Shown in pieces: positions 1,771 to 30,781 of a stretch of DNA of 33,514 nt. A model generated the notes under the pieces. The model had not been told where the DNA came from, made no database searches, and saw only the letters and a program-made list of their open reading frames with translations. A program made the position numbers and the translations under genes. Source of the stretch: a virus. The stretch spans positions 1-33,514 of the IMG/VR virus record IMGVR_UViG_3300011116_000751; one strand, 5' to 3'. The first letter of the stretch is position 1. Each line of letters opens with the position of its first letter.

Positions 1771-3579
1771 CTATCCAAACACTTGTCCTGGAAGAATCTG
1801 TTGGTCGGAGTCCCCAGCGGCTCCACCGCCACTGCCACCGCTACCACTTGGTCCTTGAATACCTTGGGTTCCAGTACCAGTTAACCCTTGAAGCCCTGTA
1901 AATCCTTGTAATCCAGTTGTTCCTTGAAAGCCGTTAGCACCATCAGTACCTGAAGTTCCCTGTGAGCCGTTAGTGCCATTAGTACCTGAAGTTCCTTGAG
2001 AACCAACAGTTCCTTGTGTACCAGTAGTGCCTTGTGTTCCAGTTAGTCCTTGAGAACCATTTGTACCCTGTGAGCCAGTTATACCTTGCGACCCGTCGGT
2101 ACCATTTGTTCCATTCGTACCCTGCGACCCTGTAAAGCCTTGTATACCGTTTGTTCCGTTTGTGCCTGAAGTTCCTTGACTGCCTGTAATTCCTTGCAAT
2201 CCCGTTGTTCCCTGTGAACCATTAGTTCCGTTAGTACCTGAAGTTCCCTGAAGTCCAGTGTTACCTTGAATACCATTTAGTCCTTGAGTTCCAATTGTTC
2301 CCTGAGAGCCTATCGTACCCTGTAAGCCTGTGTTGCCCTGTAGACCTGTGGTTCCTTGTGAGCCAGTTAACCCTTGTAAACCAGTTGTTCCTTGGGCGCC
2401 GATAGTTCCTTGCAAACCTTGTAATCCAGTAATTCCTTGTACACCGTTTGCGCCCTGAGTTCCTGTAGTTCCTTGAATACCAACAGCGGTTGTAACTAAA
2501 ATAACTGCTTGGTTATTTGTAAACCCAGTTAAACCAGTTCCATAGGCAATTACATATGTTACTGGGATTTGTACATAGTCATTAGTTCCTGCATTAATAG
2601 ACCCATTAACTTTAAATTGTTGGTAGTTGTCAGAGTTAGCTGAATCTTGAATAAATACGTTGTCATTGACTTTTAGTAACGACAAAAACATATCTATGTC
2701 AACATTATTTGTTGTAAGATGGCTTACATAAAGAGTTGTAGTGCTAGTCTGGGTAACGTTGTTGTATCTTATATATCCATCAGTTGGCTGTGAATTAGCT
2801 ATACTAACTGTATCTGTTTTGTAATTAAAATAACTAGAAGATACTCCACTTGCTCCTACTACGCCTTGAGTTCCTTGTATTCCAAGTAAACCTTGAGTAC
2901 CTGTAGTGCCTTGAAGTCCTTGGGTGCCTTGAACACCTTGGTTACCAACAGTTCCTTGCAGCCCAGTTGCTCCTTGTGTACCAGTAATGCCTTGCGTACC
3001 AAGAGTTCCCTGAATACCATTAGTACCCTGAGTTCCAAGAGTTCCTTGAATTCCAGTTAAACCTTGTGAGCCGACTGTGCCCTGTAAGCCTTGAGAACCA
3101 GTTGTTCCTTGTAATCCAGCTGAACCCTGAACCCCTGTAGTTCCTTGATTACCAATAGTTCCTTGGTTACCTTGAATGCCGGTTGTTCCTTGTGTGCCCG
3201 TTGTTCCCTGTAAACCAGTAATACCTTGGATACTTGTTCCTTGAGTGCCCTGCGTTCCAACGGTTCCTTGACTACCTGTTAATCCTTGGGCACCTACTAT
3301 GCCTTGCGCTCCCGTAGTTCCTTGTGTACCAAGAGTCCCCTGAATACCAGTAGTGCCTTGAATTCCAGTAGTTCCCTGCCGCCCTTGGGTGCCCTGTTGC
3401 CCTTGTAATCCTTGTAATCCTTGAGTTCCTTGAATACCGTTTAAACCTTGAGGTCCAATTAAGCCCTGTACTGTTCCTACGGATTGCCAAGCAACGCCAT
3501 TCCAAAGCCATACACGGCCTGCGTAGGTATAGGTAGTTACATTAGCAACTAACCCAGAGGTAGGGAAATTAATAGGCAT
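1771..3579 (-). CDS. Collagen-like fibre protein, module B (602 aa)
   Basis: A short N-terminal domain (residues 1-37, with the RVWLWNGVAWQSV motif common at the base of phage fibres) is followed by a Gly-X-Y tract (about 39-246), a non-collagen beta-type domain (about 247-366), and a second Gly-X-Y tract (about 367-584). The X-Y pairs are mostly TQ, TT, LQ, IQ and SQ, with almost no proline, typical of bacterial and phage collagen-like trimers. The tract has at least one register break (GTSIQG). The last residues contain DSDQQILP, echoed at the end of the other module's fibre (DSDQIIIP). Start ATG 3579 directly abuts the stop of the 79-aa gene. Probable role: shaft of a virion fibre. The exact site on the virion is unknown. 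Confidence 0.8.
   Translation of the reverse strand: MPINFPTSGLVANVTTYTYAGRVWLWNGVAWQSVGTVQGLIGPQGLNGIQGTQGLQGLQGQQGTQGRQGTTGIQGTTGIQGTLGTQGTTGAQGIVGAQGLTGSQGTVGTQGTQGTSIQGITGLQGTTGTQGTTGIQGNQGTIGNQGTTGVQGSAGLQGTTGSQGLQGTVGSQGLTGIQGTLGTQGTNGIQGTLGTQGITGTQGATGLQGTVGNQGVQGTQGLQGTTGTQGLLGIQGTQGVVGASGVSSSYFNYKTDTVSIANSQPTDGYIRYNNVTQTSTTTLYVSHLTTNNVDIDMFLSLLKVNDNVFIQDSANSDNYQQFKVNGSINAGTNDYVQIPVTYVIAYGTGLTGFTNNQAVILVTTAVGIQGTTGTQGANGVQGITGLQGLQGTIGAQGTTGLQGLTGSQGTTGLQGNTGLQGTIGSQGTIGTQGLNGIQGNTGLQGTSGTNGTNGSQGTTGLQGITGSQGTSGTNGTNGIQGFTGSQGTNGTNGTDGSQGITGSQGTNGSQGLTGTQGTTGTQGTVGSQGTSGTNGTNGSQGTSGTDGANGFQGTTGLQGFTGLQGLTGTGTQGIQGPSGSGGSGGGAAGDSDQQILPGQVFG
1828..3465 (-). repeat. Collagen-coding repeat tracts of module B
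   Basis: Two stretches (about 2842-3465 and 1828-2481) of imperfect 9- and 18-base repeats encoding Gly-X-Y units such as GTQGTTG and GLQGTTG. Separated by a unique domain of about 120 codons. Confidence 0.85.
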
Positions 3580-5119: not shown

Positions 5120-6454
5120 TCAAAACATGTGTGTTGGAATAATGATTTGGTCTGAGTCCCCGCTACCACTTAGTCCGCTAGTACCTTGAATACCTTGCGC
5201 TGCAAAGGCACCCGCTATACCTTGATTACCTAACAGACCTTGCGTCCCTGTTAAGCCTTGTGTACCTTGAGAACCAGTAGTTCCTTGAGTACCTTGAGCT
5301 CCTATTGTACCTTGTATACCTGTTAAACCTTGTAAACCAGTTGCTCCCTGGGTACCTGTTGTTCCTTGTGTACCTGTTGTTCCCTGTAAACCAGTAGCCC
5401 CTTGAATTCCCCTAACCGACTGTATATACCCATATGTAACCCCATTTGTAAACGTGCCGCTGCTAGATACAAACGTAACTGGGACTGTATAAGTAGTTGT
5501 AACTAAAGTAGTAGCAGCGGATACTGTAAACTTTGCGTATACCGCTCCCAATGAAAACACAAGCGTACTACCAATAGCTAATGGGGAAGCAGACGTGTTA
5601 TTTATATAAACAGAAGTAACAGAGCCAACAGTTGCGTTATTAAAGTTAAACTGTCCAGCACTTGAAGATGTAGAGGTCACCCCGCTGTTAAATACCAAAG
5701 GTACGCCAGATAAAGCTCCTTGTACTCCTTGTAAACCGGTGGTTCCTTGTGTTCCTTGTGTCCCTTGTGTACCTGTGGTACCTTGGCTACCTGTAGTACC
5801 CTGTAAACCAACGGTTCCTTGAGCACCTGTTAATCCTTGAGAACCTGTTGCTCCTTGCGTACCAACAGCACCTTGTGTTCCTGTAGTTCCCTGTAGACCT
5901 TGTGTTCCTTGTGTTCCTTGTGTACCTTGTGTTCCTTGCGTACCAACAGCACCTTGTGTTCCAGTTGTTCCTTGTAATCCAATAGTTCCTTGAGCGCCTG
6001 TTCCTATTAAACCTTGAGTTCCTTGTAGTTGATTAAAACCGCCACCTTGAAGACCCTGAGCTCCTTGGATACCGATTAGATTATCGTATGGTTCAAACCA
6101 TTCAACTCCATCATATATGTATGTGCGCCCATAATTTGTATCTACCCAAGCATCCCCAACTACAGGTAAAGATGGAACTGTTGATGAAAGTGTGTAACGC
6201 CCTTGCACACCTTGAGCGCCTTGTAACCCTTGTATTCCTTGTGTACCTTGAATGCCACCAAGGCCTTGAGTTCCTATAGTTCCTTGTGTGCCTTGTGGGC
6301 CGACGGCACCACCCTGTCCAGTACCAACAACTATAGGAGATGCGGTTGTAACAGAAGGTGTAACTGTTTGGATACTGATTACAATTGGCGCTCTAGGTGT
6401 TACTGTAATTGAGCAAGAACAAGGAGTGCAGTTACAAGATGTGCAGTTACTCAA
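5120..6454 (-). CDS. Collagen-like fibre protein with cysteine-rich N-terminus, module A (444 aa)
   Basis: Starts at TTG 6454; the alternative start is supported by an AGGTG site upstream and an 8-base overlap with the preceding gene. Five cysteines lie within the first 14 residues (C4, C7, C9, C12, C14), unusual for a fibre. Then come a first Gly-X-Y tract (about 51-86), a small domain with VGDAWVDTNYGRTYIYDGVEW (about 87-125), a second tract (about 128-247), a beta-type domain (about 249-348), a third tract (about 349-428) and the end motif GDSDQIIIP. The Gly-X-Y tracts are rich in T and Q and poor in proline. Likely the shaft of a trimeric virion fibre; the cysteines may crosslink chains or bind metal, which is speculative. 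Confidence 0.8.
   Translation of the reverse strand: MSNCTSCNCTPCSCSITVTPRAPIVISIQTVTPSVTTASPIVVGTGQGGAVGPQGTQGTIGTQGLGGIQGTQGIQGLQGAQGVQGRYTLSSTVPSLPVVGDAWVDTNYGRTYIYDGVEWFEPYDNLIGIQGAQGLQGGGFNQLQGTQGLIGTGAQGTIGLQGTTGTQGAVGTQGTQGTQGTQGTQGLQGTTGTQGAVGTQGATGSQGLTGAQGTVGLQGTTGSQGTTGTQGTQGTQGTTGLQGVQGALSGVPLVFNSGVTSTSSSAGQFNFNNATVGSVTSVYINNTSASPLAIGSTLVFSLGAVYAKFTVSAATTLVTTTYTVPVTFVSSSGTFTNGVTYGYIQSVRGIQGATGLQGTTGTQGTTGTQGATGLQGLTGIQGTIGAQGTQGTTGSQGTQGLTGTQGLLGNQGIAGAFAAQGIQGTSGLSGSGDSDQIIIPTHMF
5170..6302 (-). repeat. Collagen-coding repeat tracts of module A
   Basis: Three Gly-X-Y-coding stretches (about 5170-5410, 5714-6072 and 6197-6302), same repeat vocabulary as module B (CCTTGTGTTCCTTG-like units on the plus strand), separated by two non-repeat domains. 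Confidence 0.85.
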
Positions 6455-14365: not shown

Positions 14366-14414
14366 TCTAATGCCACCTACGGGGAGAGAAAAGAGAGGCA
14401 AGCTAAGTCTAACA

Positions 14415-14657
14415 CTACTTCATGCGTGTATACAACTCTTCAACTACGGCGTGGAGAGCCTCAGCTCCCTGCCGCGCCTCGTCTAAATAAAACTTCTCAC
14501 GGCTTCGTTGGTACCCTGATAAACACCTACCAATTTCAATTAAAGACTGGTCTACCCACATCTCTAACTCTCCAGTAGGTATTCTAGAAACTCGTTTAGC
14601 TACCTTTTCAGAAAAAGGCTTATCCCATACTTTTTTATTCTTTAAAAAACTCATCAT
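14415..14657 (-). CDS. Conserved actinophage-type small protein (80 aa)
   Basis: Unrecognised by function. It is alpha-helical with the pattern VAKRVSRIPTGELEMWVDQSL.E.GR.L......L.EARQGAEALHAVVEEL, which resembles small proteins encoded near terminase genes in actinophages. The start was set at ATG 14657, because GGAGG lies 9 bases upstream of it but directly touches the in-frame ATG at 14666. It overlaps the previous gene by 23 bases. A possible role beside the terminase is only inferred from position. Confidence 0.65.
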   Translation of the reverse strand: MMSFLKNKKVWDKPFSEKVAKRVSRIPTGELEMWVDQSLIEIGRCLSGYQRSREKFYLDEARQGAEALHAVVEELYTRMK

Positions 14658-14931
14658 AGTACCCATCCTCCGGAGTCCAAGCCGTTCTTCCTCTCATGGC
14701 TTTGTAGAGCAGCTCATCAATAGATTCAGCATCATCTAAATGAATATCAGGTGTATGGTAAAACACGCCAATATAGTAGCCAGGTTTGGTGAATGGTAAC
14801 CTAAAAACTAAGCATTTGCCAAGTCGATAAGTTTCCTCAGTCTCTTGGGTAGTGCCTATTTCAATAATAGGTAAAAATCTATTGTGATAGTACTCAAGCT
14901 TTCCAACATATAGTTTTCCAAATGTTTTCAT
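14635..14931 (-). CDS. Hypothetical protein (98 aa)
   Basis: Unrecognised. Mixed alpha/beta composition with several aromatic residues (KLEYYHNRFLPIIEIGTT, then LVFRLPFTKPGYYIGVFYH) and a C-terminal EDGYYDEFFKE. No TM, cysteine cluster or enzyme motif. ATG 14931 overlaps the stop of the KTSC protein gene by four bases (ATGA), so the two are co-translated. Confidence 0.65.
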   Translation of the reverse strand: MKTFGKLYVGKLEYYHNRFLPIIEIGTTQETEETYRLGKCLVFRLPFTKPGYYIGVFYHTPDIHLDDAESIDELLYKAMRGRTAWTPEDGYYDEFFKE

Positions 14932-15521
14932 AAGTAGTCTTTAAATATCTCCTCTGCTGTAAAGCTTTTTAAATTAAATAACTTAGACATTGATTCTTTG
15001 CTATTTTGAATACCCCTAGCCATACTAGCCGAATAAGATATTTGTGCTCTAACCCCAGCTGACAGAGCATCTGGGTTTGCGGGTCCCATATCAGGCCATT
15101 GGTCTAAACCCTCAGCCCTTAGGAATTCTCCCGTAGAGCCGCTGTTACGCAGCCCAATCCACATATGGGCTGGGACATCATTGTATTGCCACCATGTGTT
15201 GTCTCTAAATACAACAATAAGTGTTCTTGTATCTGCGTTGTAGCCTATAGTTAAAGCACGAGGTCTTTTAGCGTTTGAAGTAGGAGCTACCATTTGTTCG
15301 CTTCCTATTGAGTCTAATTCAGCCTCATTAGCGTCTTGAATGTCTTTAGGAACAGTCACATCCCAAGAACCAGAATCTTCTTGATTACGGTCTGCGCGTT
15401 GTTCAACTTGCCTCTTAAATACTATTTCATCATATGTAGGAAGATTAGAGTTTTTATTAGTGGGTGGGGTTGACTGTTGATTCATCTCATCCCATGAAGG
15501 GACTCTAGGTGACTTTGCCAT
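14928..15521 (-). CDS. KTSC-domain protein (197 aa)
   Basis: Residues about 86-137 match the KTSC domain: RALTIGYNADTRTLIVVFRD.TWWQYNDVPAHMWIGLRNSGSTGEF. KTSC is a small domain often seen in phage and bacterial proteins, sometimes fused to nucleic-acid enzymes; its biochemical role is not settled. The first 80 residues are polar and probably disordered, with two short repeats of the form P-[ST]-[WY]-DE (PSWDEM near 8 and PTYDEI near 28). The C-terminal 40 residues may be helical. ATG 15521 overlaps the upstream stop by one base. It belongs to the small-gene cluster read before the terminase. Confidence 0.75.
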   Translation of the reverse strand: MAKSPRVPSWDEMNQQSTPPTNKNSNLPTYDEIVFKRQVEQRADRNQEDSGSWDVTVPKDIQDANEAELDSIGSEQMVAPTSNAKRPRALTIGYNADTRTLIVVFRDNTWWQYNDVPAHMWIGLRNSGSTGEFLRAEGLDQWPDMGPANPDALSAGVRAQISYSASMARGIQNSKESMSKLFNLKSFTAEEIFKDYL

Positions 15522-15799
15522 TAATCCTCACATATATGCAACTCAGTCTCTGTCTCTATTACACGAGCAGAGCACACAGAACATCTTAAATAACGTAAAG
15601 GCTTATAGTTATTTTGCACAGTAGCTCCAGGTAAAAACTCAGAGCCATCTTCTGCGTAAGCCTCTTCATATTCATAAATAATATCAGGTTCAGATAAAGG
15701 GTGCCCCAAAGTAAGTTCTGGAGGGAACGGCCCTTGAGGGGCTGTTACCTTGTCTGGCACTGGATGTACTTGTATTGCTTGTTTATTAATTATTTTCAT
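15521..15799 (-). CDS. Small zinc-finger-like protein (92 aa)
   Basis: Start placed at ATG 15799 (MKIINKQAIQVHP), inside the end of the upstream zinc-finger gene; the region further upstream would read a very basic stretch that belongs to that gene. The last 22 residues hold CSVCSARV..TETELHIC, a CxxC plus HxC set that could bind one zinc. The middle is acidic with E/Y repeats (IIYEYEEAYAEDGSEF). Function unknown. Confidence 0.6.
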   Translation of the reverse strand: MKIINKQAIQVHPVPDKVTAPQGPFPPELTLGHPLSEPDIIYEYEEAYAEDGSEFLPGATVQNNYKPLRYLRCSVCSARVIETETELHICED

Positions 15800-15980
15800 C
15801 TGAAGGCGCCGCCTTCTTTTTTGTTTTTGGTTCCTCAACCGTTGCTAATGGAAAACTACCAGCTTCTGCGCGGCCCTTTAGCCACACTGGAAGGCAGTCT
15901 ACGCAATAGTTAATTGGGTTAAGCCCTGGGTCTGCGCATGTGTATGCTGCATCTTTATTGCAATTATCGCATTTAATCAT
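15786..15980 (-). CDS. Zinc-finger mini-protein (64 aa)
   Basis: Starts MIKCDNCNKDAAYTC and has a second pair YCVDCLP: CxxC (residues 4 and 7) and CxxC (26 and 29), a typical zinc ribbon like those in many small actinophage proteins. A basic tail follows (EEPKTKKKAAPSDENN). AGGAG precedes ATG 15980. It is the second gene of the minus-strand cluster starting at 16350, and overlaps the next gene by 14 bases. Confidence 0.7.
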   Translation of the reverse strand: MIKCDNCNKDAAYTCADPGLNPINYCVDCLPVWLKGRAEAGSFPLATVEEPKTKKKAAPSDENN

Positions 15981-16047
15981 TAAAGTCTCCTAAAGCGTTT
16001 AGTATACATGAAAACTAGTGGTTTTGCGCAAGTGTTACTTTAGCACA

Positions 16048-16350
16048 TTATTCGTTATCGTCAACATGCTGTTCAAATCGCCCTTCAAGACGGGCTACCC
16101 GGTCAAATATGATTATTTGGTTTGCGCGTAACTCTTGTACAATAGGCAATATTTGAAGCTTAACAACGTCTAAGAGAGAACTTCCGCCATTATGGCGCAA
16201 TTCGTTAATGGGCTCTTCCATAACGGCTGTATTAGCCTCTATAGCCTGTTTAACGGCCGTTCTAAAGAGCTTCCATGCAACTCCGCCAATAACTACGGCT
16301 ACAGCGGTGTACGAAGCGACAATTGTTGCGATATCGGAGGCTGACATCAA
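16048..16350 (-). CDS. One-TM membrane protein, holin-like (100 aa)
   Basis: One clear TM segment at residues about 8-28 (ATIVASYTAVAVVIGGVAWKLF), then an amphipathic helical tail. The string HNGGSSLLDVVKL (54-66) fits a motif, NGGSSLxDxV, that I associate with small membrane proteins (often annotated as holins) of actinophages, and the end LEGRFEQH is also typical. It may therefore help membrane disruption at lysis, although it is read away from the transglycosylase 208 bp to the right. It is the first gene of the minus-strand cluster, so a promoter should lie in the gap upstream. Confidence 0.6.
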   Translation of the reverse strand: MMSASDIATIVASYTAVAVVIGGVAWKLFRTAVKQAIEANTAVMEEPINELRHNGGSSLLDVVKLQILPIVQELRANQIIIFDRVARLEGRFEQHVDDNE

Positions 16351-16557
16351 TACCCTATCCTGTGTATAGTATGAGTTACAGAATAGTTATCCGTATTAAT
16401 TACACAAAATCTGACGTTTTGTCTAATTTTACACATAAATAAATAAATAAACATCTAAACATGCGTAGTTCAACTTGACATATGCTGTAACTCTTTGGTT
16501 AGCTAGTACATGACTAAGGCGCCGTATGGGCGCCTTTGCCGACTGAGAGGAGCAGAA
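16351..16557. promoter_or_regulatory. Divergent control region between holin-like gene and transglycosylase
   Basis: 207-bp AT-rich gap between genes read in opposite directions. It contains a perfect TTGACA at 16475-16480 on the plus strand (no clear -10 element at 16-18 bases), an AAAT/AATA-rich run (16435-16451), and an inverted repeat ACAAAA-N7-TTTTGT (16404-16422) that could be an operator. On the minus strand, TAGACA with TAATTA 17 bases downstream is a possible but weak promoter. Exact starts cannot be fixed from sequence. Confidence 0.45.
16516..16537 (+). promoter_or_regulatory. Leader hairpin before the transglycosylase start
   Basis: Perfect 8-bp inverted repeat AAGGCGCC / GGCGCCTT (16516-16523 and 16529-16536) with a 5-base loop, 21 bases before ATG 16558 and just before the ribosome binding site GAGAGGAG. 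It may stabilise or attenuate the leader. There is no long T-run, so full termination is unlikely. Confidence 0.5.
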
Positions 16558-17094
16558 ATGCTTAATATCAGAATAAACTTTAGTGTTGACGTCCGAAAGG
16601 CGGTAAGGAAATGGATAGCAATAGCAATCCTCTATTCCCAAATATGTTGGGGCAGCCCACATGCTGCAGCTCTAACTGCCCCTGTGGAGAAGCCAATAAC
16701 AGTCAACCTGACGTATCTGAAAGTGACAACGACAAAGTCACAAGCCAAGAAGGACTTGGCTAGTAACGGCGTTAAATACTTTGACGCTGAGGCTCTTGCC
16801 TTTTTGACAGTCTATACACAAGACTGGTCTATAAAAGAGTGGGAGTGCCTACGAAACATATGGAAGAAGGAAAGCCATTTCAACCCTAAGGCTCATAACA
16901 AGTCTTCAGGCGCGTATGGAATCGCTCAGTTCATGCCCTCAACGTGGGGCAACTACAAAGTCACTAAAACGGCTGAGGCGAAGTTACAGATAAAATACGG
17001 GTTACGCTATATTGAAAAACGGTATGGCAGTACGGACAATCCAACTGGAGCCTGCAACGCTTGGGCGTTTTGGCAGAAAAACAATTGGTATTAG
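16558..17094 (+). CDS. Secreted lytic transglycosylase (SLT/Rpf-like domain, 178 aa)
   Basis: Cleaves the glycan strands of peptidoglycan. ATG 16558 is chosen because GAGAGGAG lies just upstream; an earlier ATG is not supported. Residues about 13-38 look like a signal peptide (RKAVRKWIAIAILYSQICWGS, then PHAAA). The catalytic domain starts near residue 92: W-E-CLRNIWKKESHFNP with catalytic Glu at E105, then SSGAYGIAQFMPSTW (117-130) and GLRYIEKRYGS...ACNAW.FW....WY. C97 and C166 probably form a disulfide. This looks more like an actinobacterial secreted wall enzyme than a classic phage endolysin. It stands alone on the plus strand between convergent genes. Confidence 0.87.
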   Translation: MLNIRINFSVDVRKAVRKWIAIAILYSQICWGSPHAAALTAPVEKPITVNLTYLKVTTTKSQAKKDLASNGVKYFDAEALAFLTVYTQDWSIKEWECLRNIWKKESHFNPKAHNKSSGAYGIAQFMPSTWGNYKVTKTAEAKLQIKYGLRYIEKRYGSTDNPTGACNAWAFWQKNNWY

Positions 17095-17104
17095 AAGGAA
17101 AAGC

Positions 17105-17136
17105 AAAAAGGCCCCTGGGAAACCAGGGGCCTTTCT
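17105..17136. terminator. Bidirectional intrinsic terminator between convergent genes
   Basis: Inverted repeat GGCCCCTGG / CCAGGGGCC (17110-17118 and 17123-17131) with GAAA loop, extended by A-run on the left and TTTCTG on the right. It serves the plus-strand transglycosylase (stop 17094) and the minus-strand 432-aa gene (stop 17156). Confidence 0.88.
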
Positions 17137-17155
17137 GTTATGTTCTATTAAGCTA

Positions 17156-18454
17156 TTAAGCCCAAGATGTCATTGTGATTGTAGCTGATAGAGCTGTTGA
17201 AGCTGTACCTGCTGCAATTGACTGAGTCTTGACTGTTCCTGAGGCACCAGTTAGCTTTGTACCAGGTGTGATAGCGCCTGAGTCGGCAACTGTCCATCCT
17301 GAACCTGCAATAACAAGTGTGCTTCCTGAACCACCAGTTACAGTCCAAGTACCAACAAGTGCTGCTGGGATACCTGTGCCTGTAGCGATTGTTACCTTAG
17401 TACCTACTGGCCATGTAGTTGTTCCGCCAGAGACGGTTACGGTAGCCGCAGTAGTTGTTGTAACGTTAATCTGTGTAGGTTGTGTAGCAGTGTTTGTAAC
17501 ACCAGTTGTATTGGTGATATTAGCTGTTGCGAATCCTGCATCCTTAAGAGCGTCCAAACCAAGAGCGGTTGTGAGACCAAGGATTGAAGGAACATCAATA
17601 TAAGCAGTTCCAGCTACATAAGCGCCGTCAGCTGCTGTAAGTTGATTTGTAAGAGCTGCATAACCGTTGTTAATGTTAATCAATGAACCTGTAGTTCCAG
17701 CAGTTACTGTGAAGTAATCACGAGTTGCTGTTGCGACAGTTACGCTTGATGAGTTAAAGTCGCCAATTCCTGTAAGGATTACTGTGTCGCCAGCCTTCAA
17801 GAAGTTAAATGACTCGTAACGGATAGTTGTACCATCTCCAGTTACTTGAGTAATGGCGTACTTACCAGTTCCTGGTGTATATGATGGATAACCTGAGTAA
17901 CCTGTTTCATCAAGTTCATGGTATGCGCTCATAATAGTCTTATCAGCGATTACGTTTGAGCCTGATTTTCCAGTAGTTCCTGCAAAGTCTAGACGAGCGC
18001 CAGTTACTGCAGTTGTAGCTGCCCAACCGTAGTCGGCACCTACTCCTGGAAGTGAGTATTCGCCAACTTTAGCGACAGCTGTCTGACCTGTGTCAGATAC
18101 AGAAGTTGCATTTGTTACTGTAAAGCCTGTGTACGCTCCAGCTGAACCTACAAGAGAAGCAATTGTTGCGTTTGTTAGGTTAGCTGCTGTAGTTGTAAGA
18201 CCTGTAATAGTTACCTGTTGCCCTACGTTAAATGTGTTTGCTGCTGTATAGGTAATAGTAGTACCGTTACCAGATGCCGCAGTTACTGTAGCTGTCTTAT
18301 ATGAAACTTGACCTGAGCCTGTAGTACCACCGATGTTAGCCGCAGCAGTTTCTGTGCGTTGGTCGTTTGGTTGTAAAGGCATGTTTCCCCATACGAAATC
18401 AACTACTGGATTACCGGCAGTATCAAGCGTATGAGCATTGTTATTTGTTGCCAT
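17156..18454 (-). CDS. Virion-surface-type protein with three inserted beta modules (432 aa)
   Basis: No named family recognised. Thr/Gly/Ala/Val make up much of it. A backbone domain (MATNNNAHTLDTAGNPVVDFVWGNMPLQPND..., continuing with GVGADYGWAA and AYHELDETGYSGYPSY) is interrupted or followed by three similar beta modules: residues about 52-128 (TITYTAANTFNVGQQVTITG...FTVTNA), about 199-252 (TIRYESFNFLKAGDTVILTG...YFTV) and about 328-395 (VSGGTTTWPVGTKVTIATG...GTWTVTG). The same module type is inserted in the 211-aa fibre protein at 1117..1752. Probably a decoration or fibre-base protein. AGGAAAA precedes ATG 18454; a strong terminator follows the stop. Confidence 0.65.
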   Translation of the reverse strand: MATNNNAHTLDTAGNPVVDFVWGNMPLQPNDQRTETAAANIGGTTGSGQVSYKTATVTAASGNGTTITYTAANTFNVGQQVTITGLTTTAANLTNATIASLVGSAGAYTGFTVTNATSVSDTGQTAVAKVGEYSLPGVGADYGWAATTAVTGARLDFAGTTGKSGSNVIADKTIMSAYHELDETGYSGYPSYTPGTGKYAITQVTGDGTTIRYESFNFLKAGDTVILTGIGDFNSSSVTVATATRDYFTVTAGTTGSLININNGYAALTNQLTAADGAYVAGTAYIDVPSILGLTTALGLDALKDAGFATANITNTTGVTNTATQPTQINVTTTTAATVTVSGGTTTWPVGTKVTIATGTGIPAALVGTWTVTGGSGSTLVIAGSGWTVADSGAITPGTKLTGASGTVKTQSIAAGTASTALSATITMTSWA

Positions 18455-19239: not shown

Positions 19240-20262
19240 TTATGCTGTAGCGGAGAAGTTATCTATTGTAGAGCCTTGATTGTATGTTGAAGGGGCTTTT
19301 ACAATACCAACCCAAGGTCCTGTATTAGGAGAGCCTGGGCTATATGTAATAGGGCTTCCAAGCTGGCTTACAAGGCCCGTAGAGGAGTAAGCAGTGATGG
19401 TGGCAGAGTTACCCGAGGTTACTACCTTTAAAGAGCCCACAGAGCTTAGAGAACCAGCGCCGCTTACAAGTGTAGTGGTTGAGGCTGTAACCACAGAGCC
19501 AGATACAGAGCTGACTACTTTAATCTGTGTGTCATATGTGTAAGTAGTAGAAGTTACGTAAGTATTTTGAGTACGTGTATAAGTAGTTACGTAAGTATTT
19601 TGAGTGCGTGTGTACGTAGTGCTACTAGATTGCAGAGTGGCGGAAATATCTGCCCCTTGACAGCCAGGTAATTCATTACATCTTTGACCTGGACATAGAT
19701 ACGGGTACCCTGGGTTTGGGCAATAAAACGTGTTAGTAGTAACTGATGAGATGCTGATAGCCCCACACCCATTCCCCGAAGGATTAGGGTCGCAGTTATT
19801 AGCATAATCTTGACACGAATTAGATTGTCCTGTACAGGTAACAGCGCTTGAATAACTTGGTGTTCCACAACCACCTGGGTTACAAGTGTTAGTAGTGTCT
19901 GAGCAAGATACAGTACCGCCAGTACAACTAGAACTAGTAGATGAGTTTTCAATATAGTTAGGATACGCGGCATACCAAAGAATAGAAGATTCAGTTGATG
20001 CCCAGAATGAAAGCCCTACGCCGCCAGACACATCTGCTGAGATAGTAGCGTTTGGATATAGAAGTTGATACGCGCGAGCATAGGAGCTTCCAGCATCAGA
20101 TGAAGTTGCTGAGCTACCGTTTGCAGACCATGTGCCTGCAGTTGTGAGCCACGCGCGCTGTGTTCCGCCGCTTGCACTTCCTAAAGAGCCAGATACTGTT
20201 CTATTAAAAGTGTCGGATATAACTCGTACTATGCCAGCGGCTATTCCGCCTATGTTTGGCAT
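19240..20262 (-). CDS. Lectin-like fibre protein with cysteine-rich insert (340 aa)
   Basis: Start set at ATG 20262 (MPNIGGIAAGIVRV), which overlaps the stop of the 695-aa fibre gene (TAATG). Two regions, about 15-103 (DTFNR..SGSLGSASGG..WLTTAGTWSANG...ISADVSGGVGLSFWAS) and about 245-340 (IKVVSSVSG...LKVVTSGNSATITAYSSTG...STIDNFSA), together look like one concanavalin/LamG-type jelly-roll. Between them residues 113-201 carry 12 cysteines in motifs such as SCSDTTNTCNPGGC and YLCPGQRC, followed by a tandem 11-residue repeat (TYTRTQNTYVT). The cysteine-rich block thus sits in a surface loop of the lectin-like fold. Likely binds a host surface; the ligand is unknown. Confidence 0.7.
   Translation of the reverse strand: MPNIGGIAAGIVRVISDTFNRTVSGSLGSASGGTQRAWLTTAGTWSANGSSATSSDAGSSYARAYQLLYPNATISADVSGGVGLSFWASTESSILWYAAYPNYIENSSTSSSCTGGTVSCSDTTNTCNPGGCGTPSYSSAVTCTGQSNSCQDYANNCDPNPSGNGCGAISISSVTTNTFYCPNPGYPYLCPGQRCNELPGCQGADISATLQSSSTTYTRTQNTYVTTYTRTQNTYVTSTTYTYDTQIKVVSSVSGSVVTASTTTLVSGAGSLSSVGSLKVVTSGNSATITAYSSTGLVSQLGSPITYSPGSPNTGPWVGIVKAPSTYNQGSTIDNFSATA
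19553..19618 (-). repeat. Two tandem 33-bp repeats in the lectin-like fibre gene
   Basis: Copies at 19553-19585 and 19586-19618 differ at a few bases near their ends and encode TYTRTQNTYVT twice. In-frame unit (33 = 3 x 11), so length changes would keep the reading frame. Confidence 0.8.
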
Positions 20263-22349
20263 TAATAAATATCTCCAAACACGAACCACGTAGTTCCATC
20301 GTATACAGCAGATGCTGCTGAATAACGAGTGCGTAGACGCGGTGCATTATATGTAGCGGCTGTTGATTGAATAGAGGTTGTACCTCCACCATTGATTGTT
20401 GTTTGACCAGCCCCAGCTTGAATAATGCTAAGAGAAGTTCCTGTAGGGAATCCAGTTGTTGATTGAATTGTATATGTGTTTGCGGTAGCCACGTTCATAA
20501 CAACTAATGCGGTTGAGTCTGTCAATGTAGAGTTAGTACTAGCCGTCTTAGTATTAACTGAATAAGACGATGCATAAGTACCTTGAATGCCTTGAAGACC
20601 TGTAGTTCCTTGTGCGCCATTTGTTCCTTGAAGACCATATGGATATACATACCAAGATGTATAAGTTCCAGAAGTTCCAGAAGAAGACGTTGCATTAATA
20701 GTCATTGATGTATAACCCGCGCCAGAACCAAACGCTGTAACTGCTCCATAAAGGATTGCAGTTCCAGTTGAGTTAACAGCGGCTATTGGCTCTCCAACAT
20801 AAAATAAAGAGCTAAGAGCTGGTGATGAAGGGAATACAAATGAAGTTGAACCTGTGGATGGGATAACTACGCTAGAGGTTGAGTTAGCTCCGTAACCAGA
20901 ACCAGTAATTCCTTGCGTACCAGTTGTACCCTGAATACCTGTTGTTCCTTGACTTCCTGCAGCACCTTGAGTACCTGCTCCTGTAGTTCCTTGAACACCT
21001 GCTGTACCTTGAGAGCCAGATGTTCCTTGTAAACCAGTTGTTCCTTGGGTACCGGCACCGGTAGTTCCTTGGGTGCCTGTTAATCCTTGAGTACCTGTTA
21101 ATCCTTGAGAACCAACGGTTCCCTGAGAACCGGTTGTACCTGTGGTGCCTTGAGTACCTGTGTTTCCTTGAAGTCCAGTTGTGCCTTGTGTACCAACAGA
21201 GCCTTGAATACCTTGAATGCCTTGTGCGCCACGAGCTCCGGCAGTAGTAATAGTCCAGTTGCTAGCTAAAGTGGTTCCAACATTGAAGTCTGCTGCAATA
21301 GCAAAAGTTGTACCACCAGTAATTGTTACTGTGCCTTCAAAGTAATTTGAAGTTGTATTAACTGCGCGAACTCTAGTGCCGGTTACAAAAGCACCTTGAC
21401 CATTTGTTGTAAGAGTAATAGTTCCAGTAGAAGACGGCGTAGCAGATGTAGTAGAGGTGGTATCAGAAAAACCAGAACCTACTACTCCTTGTGGTCCTTG
21501 AATACCTTGTGCAGCGACTGCACCAGCAATACCTTGAACGCCTTGGTTACCAAGTAAGCCCTGTGTACCAGTATTTCCTTGAATTCCAGTTGTACCCTGA
21601 TTACCTTGAATGCCTTGAGAGCCGGTTAAACCTTGAGTTCCTTGAATGCCTTGTATACCAGTTGTACCTTGAGGACCTTGCACACCTTGAGCTCCTTGCG
21701 TGCCTTGCACGCCCTGTGTGCCCTGAATTCCAGTTGTACCTTGAATACCTTGAGTTCCTGTTGTGCCTTGCAGAGTTGCAATAGATGTCCAGCTTAAAGC
21801 TGAGCCGTTGCTTGTAAGCATTGTGCTAGCTGAACCAATACCTAATCTAGTTACAGTTGCAGCGCCTGAGCCTACAATTAAATCACCAGCTGTTGTAACT
21901 GTAGATAGAGCTACGTTTCCAGAGGCTGTTCCAATTAAATTACCAGAGGAGTTGATAGAGGTTACAACTGTGCCACTAGAGTTTTGCCATTCTTGTAGGT
22001 TAGCGCTTTGTCCCGAAGCGGCCTTAATAATAAGACCTTTAACAGTGCTTGTTACAGGAATAATAATGTTAGCTGAGTCTCCAGCTTTACGAAGATATTG
22101 AGTATGCGCATCAGAAACAATACCTGTTTCAATGTTAGTTAAACGCTCTACAACTGATGCAAAAGTGGTGGATGTCCCATTAAAAGTGCCGCTTGGGCTA
22201 GGGGTTGTGGAGGTTGTAGGGTCAACTCCGAGGGTAGACTCAATAGCTACAACTTCACCCTGAATGTTATTTGGGTGAGAAGCATCAATAATCTCAGTAA
22301 TGTTAACGTGCGTAGGGAACGTTGCTACTTGAGAGGGATAGGAAGCCAT
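20262..22349 (-). CDS. Collagen-like tail-fibre protein (695 aa)
   Basis: N-terminal domain (1-190) with HVNITEIIDASHPNNIQGEV, a motif of phage tail-fibre N-termini, then VSDAHTQYLRKAGD and a repeat-like beta part. Gly-X-Y tracts run about 194-292, 371-483 and 572-591. Two beta domains separate them: about 295-370 (FVTGTRVRAV...YFEGTVTITGGTTF) and about 487-571 (LFYVGEPIAAVN...YGAVTAFGSG). The C-terminal domain (592-695; NTYTIQSTTGFPTGTSLSIIQAGAGQTTI...YDGTTWFVFGDI) is common at fibre ends. GAAAGGATATC precedes ATG 22349. The lectin-like gene follows, coupled by TAATG, so the two products probably assemble together. Confidence 0.82.
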   Translation of the reverse strand: MASYPSQVATFPTHVNITEIIDASHPNNIQGEVVAIESTLGVDPTTSTTPSPSGTFNGTSTTFASVVERLTNIETGIVSDAHTQYLRKAGDSANIIIPVTSTVKGLIIKAASGQSANLQEWQNSSGTVVTSINSSGNLIGTASGNVALSTVTTAGDLIVGSGAATVTRLGIGSASTMLTSNGSALSWTSIATLQGTTGTQGIQGTTGIQGTQGVQGTQGAQGVQGPQGTTGIQGIQGTQGLTGSQGIQGNQGTTGIQGNTGTQGLLGNQGVQGIAGAVAAQGIQGPQGVVGSGFSDTTSTTSATPSSTGTITLTTNGQGAFVTGTRVRAVNTTSNYFEGTVTITGGTTFAIAADFNVGTTLASNWTITTAGARGAQGIQGIQGSVGTQGTTGLQGNTGTQGTTGTTGSQGTVGSQGLTGTQGLTGTQGTTGAGTQGTTGLQGTSGSQGTAGVQGTTGAGTQGAAGSQGTTGIQGTTGTQGITGSGYGANSTSSVVIPSTGSTSFVFPSSPALSSLFYVGEPIAAVNSTGTAILYGAVTAFGSGAGYTSMTINATSSSGTSGTYTSWYVYPYGLQGTNGAQGTTGLQGIQGTYASSYSVNTKTASTNSTLTDSTALVVMNVATANTYTIQSTTGFPTGTSLSIIQAGAGQTTINGGGTTSIQSTAATYNAPRLRTRYSAASAVYDGTTWFVFGDIY
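20577..21770 (-). repeat. Collagen-coding repeat tracts of the 695-aa fibre gene
   Basis: Gly-X-Y-coding stretches at about 21474-21770, 20900-21239 and 20577-20636. Units such as GIQGTTG and GTQGTTG are shared with the fibre genes at 1.8-6.3 kb, so these tracts can serve as substrates for recombination. Confidence 0.82.
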
Positions 22350-23210: not shown

Positions 23211-23771
23211 TTACTTACCGCAGGTTGGGCAGATAGCCTTTGCTGTAGGGGCTACAACCGCTGTTGTAGCGTTCTTGAACTTTGGGCGACCAAAGCCAAC
23301 AATTGAAATCTGTTCGCCAGCTTTGTTCTTTTTGAAACCACGAAGTTTCTTAGAGACCTGCCCACCATTGCGCTGTGAGCCCTTCTTATCTGGGCTTGTG
23401 TTGCCTTCAATAGTCCAGACAGTTCCATCGCCGTTGTCCTTGATAACAATTCCAACGTGAGATATGCGGTCTACGCCATCTGAAGGGAAATCAAAGTAGG
23501 CAATATCTCCTGGCTCTGGGTCAGCAATATCTGCATCAATCCAAGCGCCAGACTTCTTAAATGCTGCTGCGCCACCTGGTGTGTAAACAGTATTAGGTAC
23601 TTTTACCCCAGCCTCATTAGCGCACCACATTACAAAAGAGCCACACCAAGGCTGAAAGTTAGCCTTGGTAAAAGCGCCATACTTTGTTTCATTATCTTTA
23701 GGACCTTCAATAGTTCCTAATTCTGCCTTAGCAACTTCAATTAACTTATCTACTGTGCCTTGGTCTGCCAT
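23211..23771 (-). CDS. Endolysin, CHAP amidase/peptidase (186 aa)
   Basis: Cuts peptide bonds in host peptidoglycan at lysis. The CHAP domain covers about residues 5-162: catalytic Cys C43 in QPWCGSFVMWC, His H105 in ISHVGIV, and acidic/polar third position in TIEGNTS (E122/N124). GDIAYFDF (89-95) is also typical. The C-terminus ends AICPTCGK with a lone CxxC, unusual, perhaps half of a metal site. No signal peptide, so it needs a holin. AGGAG precedes ATG 23771, which overlaps the stop of the 128-aa membrane gene (TAATG). Confidence 0.9.
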   Translation of the reverse strand: MADQGTVDKLIEVAKAELGTIEGPKDNETKYGAFTKANFQPWCGSFVMWCANEAGVKVPNTVYTPGGAAAFKKSGAWIDADIADPEPGDIAYFDFPSDGVDRISHVGIVIKDNGDGTVWTIEGNTSPDKKGSQRNGGQVSKKLRGFKKNKAGEQISIVGFGRPKFKNATTAVVAPTAKAICPTCGK

Positions 23772-24157
23772 TAGTTGTTCTCCTTATCCCAGTCTTCATC
23801 AACTGGATGCTCTTCTGGAACTTGTCCATCAGGCTTTCCTGTAGGCTCAGCAGCAATAACAATGCTCTTACCTGACTGATTAGCTTCAACTTGTAGGTCA
23901 GCTGCTGTCTTAGAGTTAACATCAACTGCAGCAAAAGCTGAGTTAATTTCATCTAATGAAAGCTTTCCATCATTCATAAAGCCGCGAGCTAGTTTTTCAA
24001 TTACTGCGGCAACTGCTGTAAGACCAGCAACTGTAATTGCTTTTGCTACTGAGATGCCTGCAACTGAACCTGCACCAATTACTGATAGGCCAGATGCTGC
24101 AAATACTGCAACGATGCGTAAAAGCACGTTGCCAAACATTTTAAATCCGTTTTTCAT
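23771..24157 (-). CDS. Membrane protein with EF-hand-like loop, lysis cassette (128 aa)
   Basis: One or two hydrophobic segments at residues about 10-55 (NVLLRIVAVFAASGLSVIGAG, then ITVAGLTAVAAVIEKLA), then NDGKLSLDEINSAFAAV (62-78), an EF-hand-like helix-loop that I recognise in membrane proteins next to actinophage endolysins. The C-terminal 45 residues are acidic and disordered (EEHPVDEDWDKENN). It lies directly upstream of the endolysin and downstream of a smaller two-TM protein. A holin or holin-partner role is likely; calcium binding is possible but not certain because the loop is shortened. Confidence 0.72.
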   Translation of the reverse strand: MKNGFKMFGNVLLRIVAVFAASGLSVIGAGSVAGISVAKAITVAGLTAVAAVIEKLARGFMNDGKLSLDEINSAFAAVDVNSKTAADLQVEANQSGKSIVIAAEPTGKPDGQVPEEHPVDEDWDKENN

Positions 24158-24327
24158 TATTCATCCTTTGGGTTACGTAGTGGATATGTAATAGCCCAAG
24201 CAATTAATGTTCCAATAATTGCATAGCCAACGATTGTTTTAGCAGACCCATCAAGAACTACCCAAGCAATAAACATACCTAGTAGTGTCCATAGTTGGTC
24301 AACCATGTCTGTGAATATCTTCTTCAA
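24157..24327 (-). CDS. Two-TM mini-protein, holin candidate (56 aa)
   Basis: Starts at TTG 24327 with GAGGAG 9 bases upstream and a TTGA overlap with the stop of the lectin-stalk gene; an in-frame ATG at 24306 would give 49 aa. Two hydrophobic segments: about 10-25 (LWTLLGMFIAWVVLD) and about 31-49 (IVGYAIIGTLIAWAITYPL), then a charged tail (RNPKDE). The stop overlaps the next start (TAATG). Size, topology and place directly before the lysis genes fit a small class II-like holin. It would be missed by a caller restricted to ATG and at least 60 aa. Confidence 0.7.
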   Translation of the reverse strand: MKKIFTDMVDQLWTLLGMFIAWVVLDGSAKTIVGYAIIGTLIAWAITYPLRNPKDE

Positions 24328-25976
24328 GGTCTGCGTCTCCTCACGCTCTTTGATTCACTGGAGGCGCCTCCGCCTCCAGAACTTCCTCCGCCGTTTCCGC
24401 CAGAGCGAGTTCCGCTTGATGCGGCACCTCCAGCAGCTGCTACTGCATTAATTGCAGCATTACCTGCAATAACGGCAGCAACTACCATTTTTTGTGCTTC
24501 TTCACGTTCTTGTGGGGACATGTCAGCACCAATGTTTCCTAGTGCTTGTAGTGCCTCACCTGGGTCGCTAAATAGTGCGCCAATTAATTCTGATGGGTTC
24601 TCTAGTAAAACTAGAGCCGCAGCAACGTCTGCTGTAATTATAACTTCATTACCGTTCTCATCCTGTCTAACCTCAACAGGAGTCTCGGGTGGTAGGTCTT
24701 TATATTCAAGACCAGCTTCTTTAATAGCTTCAGCAGTAATAGATTGTCCAGGAGCAACAGATGCAATTAGCGCCTCTGCTACTACTTCTTTTTCTGCTTC
24801 AGTAAGTTTGCCATCAGCTAGCGCATCCTTGACAGCTTCTGCTACAGTTGGCTCCTGATTTACAGGAGGTTGTGATGGTTCTACTATCGGATTTTGTGGC
24901 TCTGGCTTTGGTGACGGCGGTACTGGTTCTGGTGCCACAGGTGGCTCAGGTGCCACAGGGGGCTCCACAGGCGCTACGGGTGGCTCTGAAGGCTCTTCCA
25001 CGGGTGGTTGGGGTTCTGTGGGTGGTAATGGCGCTTCTATGGGTGGCTCAGTAGATGGCCCGCCAATTGACCCCTCAGGGTCTGGAAGCGCTACAGGAGG
25101 CTCTGGAGCAGGCTCAGGAGCAGGTTCTAAAGTTGGCTCAGGAGCAGGTACAGGTTCTGGGATTGGCTGTGGCAAAGGTTCAGGAACTGGTTGAGGCTTT
25201 GGAACCACAGGGGTGGGTTCAGTTGGAATTGGATTTGGAGTAGGCGATGGAACCACAGGAGATGGCACAGGAGACGGCTCTGGCTTTGGAAGAAGCGGCT
25301 CAGTCGGCTCTGGCAAAGGCAAAGGCTTTGGGTCTTTTGAAGGCTCAGGAGAAGGAGTAGGCAATGGCGTTGGGTCTGGGAGTTTCGTTGGCGGTATTGG
25401 CTCTGGCTTATTGGTATCTACAGGAGAAGGAGTAGGTGAAGGTGAAGGCAACGGAGTTATATTGGTTGGCAAAGGTGAAGGCTCTGGAGCTACGAGTATC
25501 GGAGCTGGAGATGGCTCTGGCTTTGGCTCAGGAGAAAGCAATGTGGAAGGAGTAGGAGATGGTTCTGGTACAACAGTTTGTGTTGGGCTTGGTGTTGGTT
25601 CTGGGCTTGGTTCTGGTTGTGTGGTTGGAGCAGGTGAAGAAGACGGCTCGGGAGCGCTCTCATTACTTGGACTTGGGAAAGGACTCGCGGTTGGCTCAGG
25701 AGAGGTCTCTGGCTTCACTGGTTCAGAAATCGGAAGAGGATTAATAAGTTTATATTCAATAGACACATTAAGTCTTTTATAAGTTCCACTGCAAGGGTCA
25801 CCAAATACGCCATTATTAGCTGAGATAGTAGCTGTTTCTTTTCCTAATACAGCATTAGCAACAATTTCTATTGAGTTTGCGGCATGGCACTTACCTAAAG
25901 TGTTTCCATTAGGGGTGCCGTAACTTGCAAATAAGACTGTTGTAAACATAGAACCAATAGGTGCTTTTAACACCAT
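24324..25976 (-). CDS. SUEL-type lectin with proline-rich stalk and C-terminal anchor (550 aa or more)
   Basis: Residues about 1-76 match a SUEL/rhamnose-binding lectin domain: LFASYGTPNG, KCHA, GVFGDPCSGTYKRLNV (YG, DPC and K-L motifs kept; several cysteines replaced). Residues about 80-370 are a Pro/Glu/Ser repeat stalk (PEPSPEP type). A folded part follows (about 375-495, including ADGKLTEAEKEVVAEAL and DLPPETPVEVRQDENGNEV). A hydrophobic helix is at about 496-519, then a Gly/Ser tail ending VRRRR. The frame stays open upstream of ATG 25976 to about 26108 and encodes a good signal peptide (ALRLFAALFVATSAAFF, then STAYA cleavage site), but that stretch has no ATG, GTG or TTG. The real start is therefore likely ATT/ATC near 26103-26108 or needs a frameshift. 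Probably a cell-wall-spanning, surface-exposed lectin. Confidence 0.72.
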   Translation of the reverse strand: MVLKAPIGSMFTTVLFASYGTPNGNTLGKCHAANSIEIVANAVLGKETATISANNGVFGDPCSGTYKRLNVSIEYKLINPLPISEPVKPETSPEPTASPFPSPSNESAPEPSSSPAPTTQPEPSPEPTPSPTQTVVPEPSPTPSTLLSPEPKPEPSPAPILVAPEPSPLPTNITPLPSPSPTPSPVDTNKPEPIPPTKLPDPTPLPTPSPEPSKDPKPLPLPEPTEPLLPKPEPSPVPSPVVPSPTPNPIPTEPTPVVPKPQPVPEPLPQPIPEPVPAPEPTLEPAPEPAPEPPVALPDPEGSIGGPSTEPPIEAPLPPTEPQPPVEEPSEPPVAPVEPPVAPEPPVAPEPVPPSPKPEPQNPIVEPSQPPVNQEPTVAEAVKDALADGKLTEAEKEVVAEALIASVAPGQSITAEAIKEAGLEYKDLPPETPVEVRQDENGNEVIITADVAAALVLLENPSELIGALFSDPGEALQALGNIGADMSPQEREEAQKMVVAAVIAGNAAINAVAAAGGAASSGTRSGGNGGGSSGGGGASSESKSVRRRRP

Positions 25977-26108
25977 GGCTCGACCTTCGCCAACAGAGGC
26001 GTCTATAACGCCTTGGTCAGCGTAGGCTGTTGATTCGTATAATAAAGGAAAGAAAGCTGCGGATGTTGCTACAAATAGTGCTGCGAATAAACGCAGTGCT
26101 TTGATAAT
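25977..26108 (-). other. Signal-peptide-coding extension of the lectin-stalk gene without a standard start
   Basis: In frame with the gene at 24324..25976. Encodes IIKALRLFAALFVATSAAFF, PLLYESTAYA, then DQGVIDASVGEGRA: a basic n-region, hydrophobic core and an A-Y-A cleavage motif. The frame is closed by TGA at 26114-26112. The nearest ATG (26115) is one base out of frame. One base less in the ATATTATC region would join that ATG to this frame. Confidence 0.6.
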
Positions 26109-26139
26109 ATCTCATTCCCGTAAGAGTACATTTAGTTTA

Positions 26140-30520: not shown

Positions 30521-30781
30521 CTACCTCGCGTCCATATTGCGCTTCTGACGGTTTAATCCATCAGAGGCTGTCTTAGATACATTGTATCTTCCATAAGAGG
30601 CTTTTGGCCCGTCATACTGACCGTTATGTATAACTCGCAGCTCTTCTACTTTGCTTTTCTTATTCTGGCCTTTAAATGGCGTCTTAGCTGTTTTTTTAAT
30701 AGCTGCTTTCTTTTTACGTTTAGGGTGGCCTTCTCCTAAAGCGCGCTCAGAACGCGTACGTCCTACGGCTGGGTCTTTCAT
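30521..30781 (-). CDS. Basic hypothetical protein (86 aa)
   Basis: Starts MKDPAVGRTRSERALGEGHP, then KRKKKAAIKKTAKTPFKGQ and a more ordered end (ELRVIHNGQYDGPKASYGRY). Strongly basic, nucleic-acid-binding-like. ATG 30781 overlaps the upstream stop by four bases (ATGA). Function unknown. Confidence 0.6.
   Translation of the reverse strand: MKDPAVGRTRSERALGEGHPKRKKKAAIKKTAKTPFKGQNKKSKVEELRVIHNGQYDGPKASYGRYNVSKTASDGLNRQKRNMDAR

Follow-up and report, generated by a model that had tools for sequence, protein, structure and literature searches.

The phage proteins PblA and PblB (Streptococcus mitis phage SM1) come to lie on the surface of the bacterium, bind glycans and are linked to lysis; they are virion proteins and lack signal peptides, in which they differ from the protein described here. 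Unimolecular spanins of the T1 gp11 type are characterized by an outside N-terminus, an envelope-spanning linker and a C-terminal transmembrane helix, and are encoded in lysis cassettes. The SUEL or L-rhamnose-binding lectins (PF02140), among them SUL-I (5h4s), CSL3 (2zx0) and the lectin domain of latrophilin, share a fold that is also found in the bacterial surface adhesin RemA (8gl6, Flavobacterium johnsoniae). Finally, the phages T5 and BF23 make the surface protein Llp, which has been proposed to spare the progeny from infected cells and debris (PMC4728585). The locus analyzed here resembles each of these systems in part. It encodes a stalked lectin, predicted to be secreted and membrane-anchored, and a small membrane protein within an actinophage lysis operon, and as far as the sequences tell, this adhesin and its partner constitute a two-gene system of modular build that occurs in hundreds of actinophages and whose non-canonical start is marked by a hairpin. 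Beyond the SUEL domain itself, membership tests place the locus in no described family, and no phage SUEL or PA14 surface proteins were found in open-access papers. The sequence-only reading of this DNA had known of no described phage system with such a layout, and none came to light in the libraries and papers that we searched. What that reading observed proved correct, the gene overlap included, and its interpretation is supported in part. To judge by its appearance, the locus is a device for the cell surface, made by the virus and so far undescribed.

The window, by which we mean the whole analyzed stretch of 33,514 nt, is the IMG/VR virus record IMGVR_UViG_3300011116_000751. The features of the locus are listed in Table 1. 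Elsewhere in the window, three long proteins with collagen-like GxxGxQG repeats, probable fibres, are encoded on the minus strand (1771-3579, 5120-6454 and 20262-22349), and a lone plus-strand gene for an SLT transglycosylase with a signal-peptide-like N-terminus (16510-17094) lies amid minus-strand genes.

Table 1. Coordinates of the adhesin gene, its start region and the overlapping lysis genes in the window.
Feature	Position	Strand	Basis or remark
Stalk adhesin ORF, 593-594 aa	24324..26108	(-)	ATC start 26105 or ATT 26108; stop TGA 24324-24326
Shine-Dalgarno-like GGGA	26116..26119	(-)	7 nt before ATT, 10 nt before ATC
Candidate start codons ATT ATC	26103..26108	(-)	family alignment points to ATC 26105
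Hairpin CTGCG-N6-CGCAG from fourth codon	26081..26096	(-)	conserved, compensatory changes among relatives
Signal peptide, residues 1-30, site STAYA↓D	26019..26108	(-)	hydropathy and AxA rule
SUEL / L-rhamnose-type lectin tip, residues 37-122	25743..26000	(-)	Pfam, profile and structure searches
Pro-rich stalk, residues 123-412, 40% Pro	24873..25742	(-)	composition
Conserved anchor-proximal domain (C-domain), residues 421-540, without named family	24489..24848	(-)	
Hydrophobic segment, predicted transmembrane helix, residues 541-562	24423..24488	(-)	hydropathy
Gly/Ser linker and Arg-rich C-terminus (VRRRRP)	24327..24422	(-)	translation
56-aa two-TM partner ORF	24157..24327	(-)	TTG overlaps adhesin TGA; TAA overlaps next ATG
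128-aa holin-like ORF, N-terminal half hydrophobic	23771..24157	(-)	1-nt overlap at either end
CHAP-domain endolysin	23211..23771	(-)	domain match

The adhesin frame is uninterrupted on the minus strand between TGA 26114-26112 and TGA 24324-24326, with 594 codons from the ATT at 26108, and a chance ORF is excluded because the C-domain is conserved (dN ~0.02-0.08 vs dS 0.3-0.8). The succession of parts recognized by the sequence-only reading was recovered in full: a signal peptide (hydrophobic residues 4-23, followed by an AYA↓D site at residue 30), a Pro-Glu-Ser stalk of 290 residues (116 Pro, 35 Glu and 29 Ser), a further domain that we now know to be conserved, a hydrophobic helix and an Arg-rich end. 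Residues 541-559 of the helix have a Kyte-Doolittle value of 1.92, and two Asn are found inside this C-terminal hydrophobic segment. The translation contains no LPXTG sortase motif, and there is no lipobox Cys at the mature N-terminus, the first Cys of the protein being residue 74. The same termini recur in the family, as a site fitting signal peptidase was detected by simple rules in 103 of 109 distinct members, and all 108 measured members combine a C-terminal hydropathy peak of at least 1.55 with 2-5 Arg/Lys in the last eight residues. We infer from these features a topology with an exported N-terminus and a C-terminal membrane anchor, which agrees with the secreted, C-terminally anchored architecture suggested earlier, and we consider it highly probable that the lectin tip is held outside the cell by a protein anchored in the membrane. 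At full extension, 290 residues of ~0.31 nm each would give the stalk a length of ~90 nm, which would reach well beyond the wall.

The tip had been interpreted as a SUEL/rhamnose-type lectin because of its YG, DPC and K-L motifs, and a comparison of its structure model with SUEL lectins had been named beforehand as a test that could refute the reading. The model (pLDDT 91.6) matched: Foldseek returned 14 PDB entries with E <0.001, all of them SUEL/Gal_lectin domains with TM values of 0.79-0.86, and the best was 5h4s with 3e-6. In Pfam, PF02140 matches adhesin residues 53-117 with an E-value of 2.7e-9 and 37.7 bits, above the curated cut-off of 31.4, and a profile of four phage SUEL copies (A5) recovered the solved structures of SUL-I (5h4s, 3.8e-42), RemA (2.5e-17) and CSL3 (2.6e-17). 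The motifs are present as SYGT, GDPC and YKRL in the window protein, and YG, DPC and the K.L that follows DPC are invariant in the four phage copies. The tip is thus confirmed as a genuine SUEL lectin domain, for which sugar binding is predicted. Multiple disulphides are typical of animal rhamnose-binding lectins but are not required for the fold match; the phage tip has only two cysteines, Cys74 and Cys106, and not the full disulphide set of the animal members. It also differs from the described SUEL lectins (like in fold at TM ~0.8-0.86) in that a single domain sits on a Pro-rich stalk and a membrane segment follows towards the C-terminus. RemA, although among the closest PDB SUEL sequences, is a cellular gliding adhesin of a diderm bacterium and shares neither the anchor nor the partner nor the lysis linkage. 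Other phage SUEL proteins (MGFKxVPYSTxVCG...; L293, L295, L296, L297, L299, L302, L305 and L315) lack a signal peptide and form a class of their own, which appears virion-fibre-like.

The layout is not unique to the window phage but occurs in hundreds of contigs. Relatives of the C-domain are encoded on at least 503 IMG/VR viral contigs, and in an alignment of 20 diverse relatives the C-terminal region was 59-81% identical to that of the window. Between signal peptide and anchor, the relatives carry PA14, SUEL, fn3 or unnamed domains. In five of them (L114, L070, L193, L201 and L014), the signal peptide is 52-66% and the C-domain 70-84% identical to the window protein, and no tip is shared; judged by these alignments, the tips are exchangeable on a constant anchor. 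In 34 phage records, the gene with the C-domain is present in a single copy, PA14 and SUEL matches are confined to this gene with at most one per record, and no such lectin domain was found in any other gene, tail genes included. No recognized receptor-binding protein gene lies beside the lectin gene. As all 20 large related phage records that were tested encode WhiB, these phages are actinophages, which bears out the origin proposed before. Streptomyces phage BRock encodes the closest match to the window terminase, and the window endolysin is mostly closest to Streptomyces phage endolysins. The window record is a metagenomic fragment, and the adhesin-bearing phages probably infect freshwater actinobacteria.

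The C-domain had no convincing match in Pfam, NCBIfam or PDB. Weak Pfam matches to Ig_mannosidase (0.0055), Unstab_antitox, TerB, CtsR_C and MNHE were rejected, being below the cut-off or inconsistent across members, and the model of the domain, which is of low confidence (pLDDT 60), gave no Foldseek match below E 0.98. A host origin of the domain was considered and set aside, as two scans of bacterial genome contigs by exact short peptides, which have low sensitivity to divergent cellular relatives, detected no relative. With tblastn, the window protein found no adhesin relative in 50,697 public phage records. A search for an isolated phage that carries the adhesin yielded none; DSL-LC01 alone matched a divergent relative, and DSL-LC01 is itself metagenome-assembled.

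The place beside the lysis genes that the sequence-only reading had noted is real, as the genes for the adhesin, the 56-aa protein, the 128-aa protein and the CHAP endolysin form a chain in which each overlaps the next. An apparent gap of 167 nt between the adhesin and the holin-like ORF, seen with an ORF cut-off of 60 aa, is the 56-aa ORF (LKKIFTDMVDQLWTLLGMFIAWVVLDGSAKTIVGYAIIGTLIAWAITYPLRNPKDE). Of 304 loci, which include repeats of some contigs, 291 have this ORF directly after the adhesin; the two overlap in 248, and the motif of the small ORF is present in 278. The ORF is under strong constraint (dN 0.01-0.08 vs dS 0.7-1.4), with a near-invariant core, and had no significant Pfam or PHROG match and no match to a known holin family. 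A holin-like gene comes after the adhesin in most loci and a CHAP gene in many, with the CHAP gene not adjacent in some relatives, and the position in the lysis operon is kept across phages of different sizes. The holin-like protein of the window matches PHROG 26427; the label of this family, "nuclease", is apparently a wrong annotation for a membrane protein of hydrophobic character.

Fusion of proteins that are usually encoded as separate neighbours is standard evidence for their joint action. In a divergent SUEL/stalk lineage (L261, L263, L279, L281, L292, L255, L268 and L269), the stand-alone 56-aa ORF is absent, and the C-terminal segment of the adhesin aligns with the 56-aa ORF (hhalign probability 95.5, 54 columns, 11% identity). 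Because this segment is short and hydrophobic, the fusion counts here as moderate evidence. In DSL-LC01 (OQ999401), the gene at 14385-17219, annotated as a 944-aa "hypothetical protein", has a related C-terminal region, a stalk and the two-TM protein fused at its C-terminus; it differs from the window gene in its Thr-rich stalk and in having no SUEL or PA14 match. The same kind of stalked surface protein with a C-terminally fused small two-TM protein is seen at L238 10683-13517 (minus strand)/OQ999401 14385-17219. Since the 56-aa ORF is fused to a stalk protein in the divergent lineage and a separate holin-like ORF follows it, sequence comparison makes it more likely a dedicated membrane partner of the adhesin than a holin, and the two proteins probably form a complex. 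The overlap with a holin candidate that had been reported earlier is therefore correct as an overlap, the TTG of the small ORF lying over the adhesin TGA, while the candidate itself is better read as this partner.

None of the codons ATG, GTG and TTG precedes the signal peptide in the adhesin gene of the window. We read the start position three codons before a conserved Leu-Arg-x-Phe-Ala motif in 62 distinct relatives, picked by protein motif alone, and found ATA in 23, TTG in 14, ATG in 10, GTG in 4, CTG in 3, ATT and ATC in 2 each and others in four; GTA occurs in one relative. Neighbouring genes of the same phages start with ATG (133) or GTG (6). An out-of-frame ATG at 26115-26113 might suggest that the start region contains a frameshift or an error of assembly; this explanation was rejected, as relatives have near-cognate codons at the same position. 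Among the 30 members with ATA, ATT, ATC or CTG, 29 lack a canonical in-frame upstream start and all have a Shine-Dalgarno match, whereas such a match is absent in 9 of the 10 members with ATG, which look leaderless. Among ATG members without Shine-Dalgarno sequence (L229, L196, L200, L203, L202, L042, L061 and L225), several have a TATAAT/TATATT-like box 10-20 nt upstream, whereas the Shine-Dalgarno sequence of the ATA, ATT and ATC members is a strong one. In Staphylococcus aureus, AUA and AUU starts that are conserved and preceded by strong Shine-Dalgarno motifs give ~10% of AUG expression (PMC13009471). The adhesin is thus likely to be made in small amounts, as its start is a weak near-cognate codon.

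From the fourth codon on, RNAalifold predicts exactly the stem CTGCG-N6-CGCAG from the family alignment. Three of its five pairs show changes on both sides, namely CAGCG/CGCTG (L201), TTGCG/CGCAA (L033) and CTACG/CGTAG (L217), and the covariation exceeds that of shuffled and slid controls. The pairing of 97.7% in the covariation alignment is flattering, as 10 of the 62 sequences, those without the stem, were omitted from it; all five pairs are present in 48 of the 62 unselected relatives. Codon choice supports a constraint at the nucleotide level: CTG makes up 3% of the Leu codons in the window genes but is the first hairpin codon in 40 of 62 relatives, and the ratio of TTC to TTT in the hairpin region is 40:4, although TTT is normally preferred. 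A covariance model found the hairpin once per phage, at the adhesin gene only, with no convincing further copies in the same phages (matches at E 0.4-0.8 only). The sequence may alternatively be a DNA palindrome that is bound by a protein. A subfamily with TTG start codons (L065, L172, L174, L164 and L179) has no CTGCG hairpin and carries an inverted repeat CCAGCC...GGCTGG ~30 nt after the start.

Taken together, we propose a two-component phage-encoded surface display device that masks host sugars, and we regard this whole reading as evenly balanced between right and wrong. The large protein would be exported via its signal peptide and kept in the membrane by its C-terminal helix, where the 56-aa two-TM protein would serve as its dedicated partner, and the stalk would cross the cell wall and display the glycan-binding tip outside. 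Expression would come from the lysis operon, at a low dose owing to the weak near-cognate start codon. Late in infection, the tip would bind the host's own surface sugars, so that receptors are masked and neither the infected cell nor its debris takes up phages, and the tips would be swapped as host sugars change. Secretion, the stalk, the anchor with its partner and the low-dose start in a lysis operon fit a lectin that is displayed shortly before lysis. The masking role is the likeliest of the roles considered but on its own a tentative proposal, which we would sooner expect to fail than to hold. Several points weigh against the reading as a whole: the C-domain model is of low confidence, the hydrophobic segment contains two Asn, the fused segment is short with 11% identity, and neither a neighbouring receptor-binding protein gene nor a lectin domain in another gene ties the lectin to the receptor of the phage itself. 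The precedent for masking is the blocking of receptors at the infected-cell surface by T5 Llp (PMC4728585), which exists in unrelated versions with one role; the swapped adhesin tips might behave likewise. Llp, however, is a small lipoprotein, and its gene neighbours that of the receptor-binding protein in phages of Gram-negative hosts (PMC4728585), whereas the protein described here is a stalked lectin without lipobox Cys, encoded in an actinophage lysis operon.

The conserved operon position, the overlapping frames and the near-invariant core of the small protein would also suit a role in the control or execution of lysis, in which lectin stalk and 56-aa protein together span the wall and serve as a sensor or tie; the pair might be a lectin-tipped analogue of unimolecular spanins, or the ectodomain might respond to an outside ligand by gating the 56-aa protein, which would then be holin-like. 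The weak start and the hairpin would be compatible with dosage control of lysis, and the outside N-terminal anchor, the linker and the C-terminal helix within a lysis cassette resemble the u-spanin topology. However, u-spanins carry a lipobox, which is missing here, the lectin tip takes the place of the lipid anchor, and the inferred hosts, with WhiB in all large records tested, have no outer membrane. A separate holin-like gene and the endolysin come after the 56-aa ORF, the CHAP gene is non-adjacent in some relatives, and a small protein that can be fused to an adhesin of 600-1160 aa would be odd for a pore former. We therefore regard a lysis role as unlikely overall. A specific form of it, in which the lysis module is a transmembrane sensor of extracellular glycan, be it from neighbouring cells, from debris or from superinfecting phages, and determines the timing of lysis, its dose kept low by the AUA-type start and the RNA hairpin, we hold to be distinctly unlikely.

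The protein could instead be a fibre or decoration of the virus particle whose stalk and lectin serve adsorption, as virions commonly bear lectins and collagen-like fibres, many collagen-like proteins are encoded in the window, and the phage SUEL class without signal peptide resembles tail fibres. The signal-peptidase-like sites across the family, the C-terminal transmembrane segment with its positive end, the linkage to the lysis operon and the small membrane partner all speak against this, and the SUEL proteins without signal peptide (L293-L297, L299, L302, L305, L312 and L315) have neither the 56-aa partner nor a holin-like neighbour, so that the chance of a virion role appears slim. It is very improbable, in our estimate, that the tip binds other cells or particles and thereby causes aggregation or attachment, with progeny released near new hosts: a fully extended stalk would project far enough past the wall, and the swappable tips include fn3 and PA14, domains common in adhesins, but cells that express the protein along with the lysis genes would hardly have time to aggregate.

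If the display of a masking lectin is correct, freshwater actinophages commonly dress the dying cell with their own lectin, made from the lysis operon. The hosts of these phages, for instance the Nanopelagicales, belong to the most abundant bacteria of lakes. The phages would then possess a new kind of tool that masks receptors or controls lysis, the tips could be typed in metagenomic data and assayed on host glycans, and two unnamed protein families that are present in hundreds of phages, the anchor domain and the 56-aa partner, receive a first functional hypothesis. The architecture, gene linkage, conservation, tip swapping and start context of the system can be read from sequence; its function is predicted. 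The start region offers a natural and repeatedly conserved case of AUA/AUU/AUC initiation with a covarying hairpin, in which non-AUG initiation is directly testable. Of 12 distinct relatives of a second small gene of the window, which codes for 86 aa (30521-30781, minus strand), three have ATT where the start codons align.
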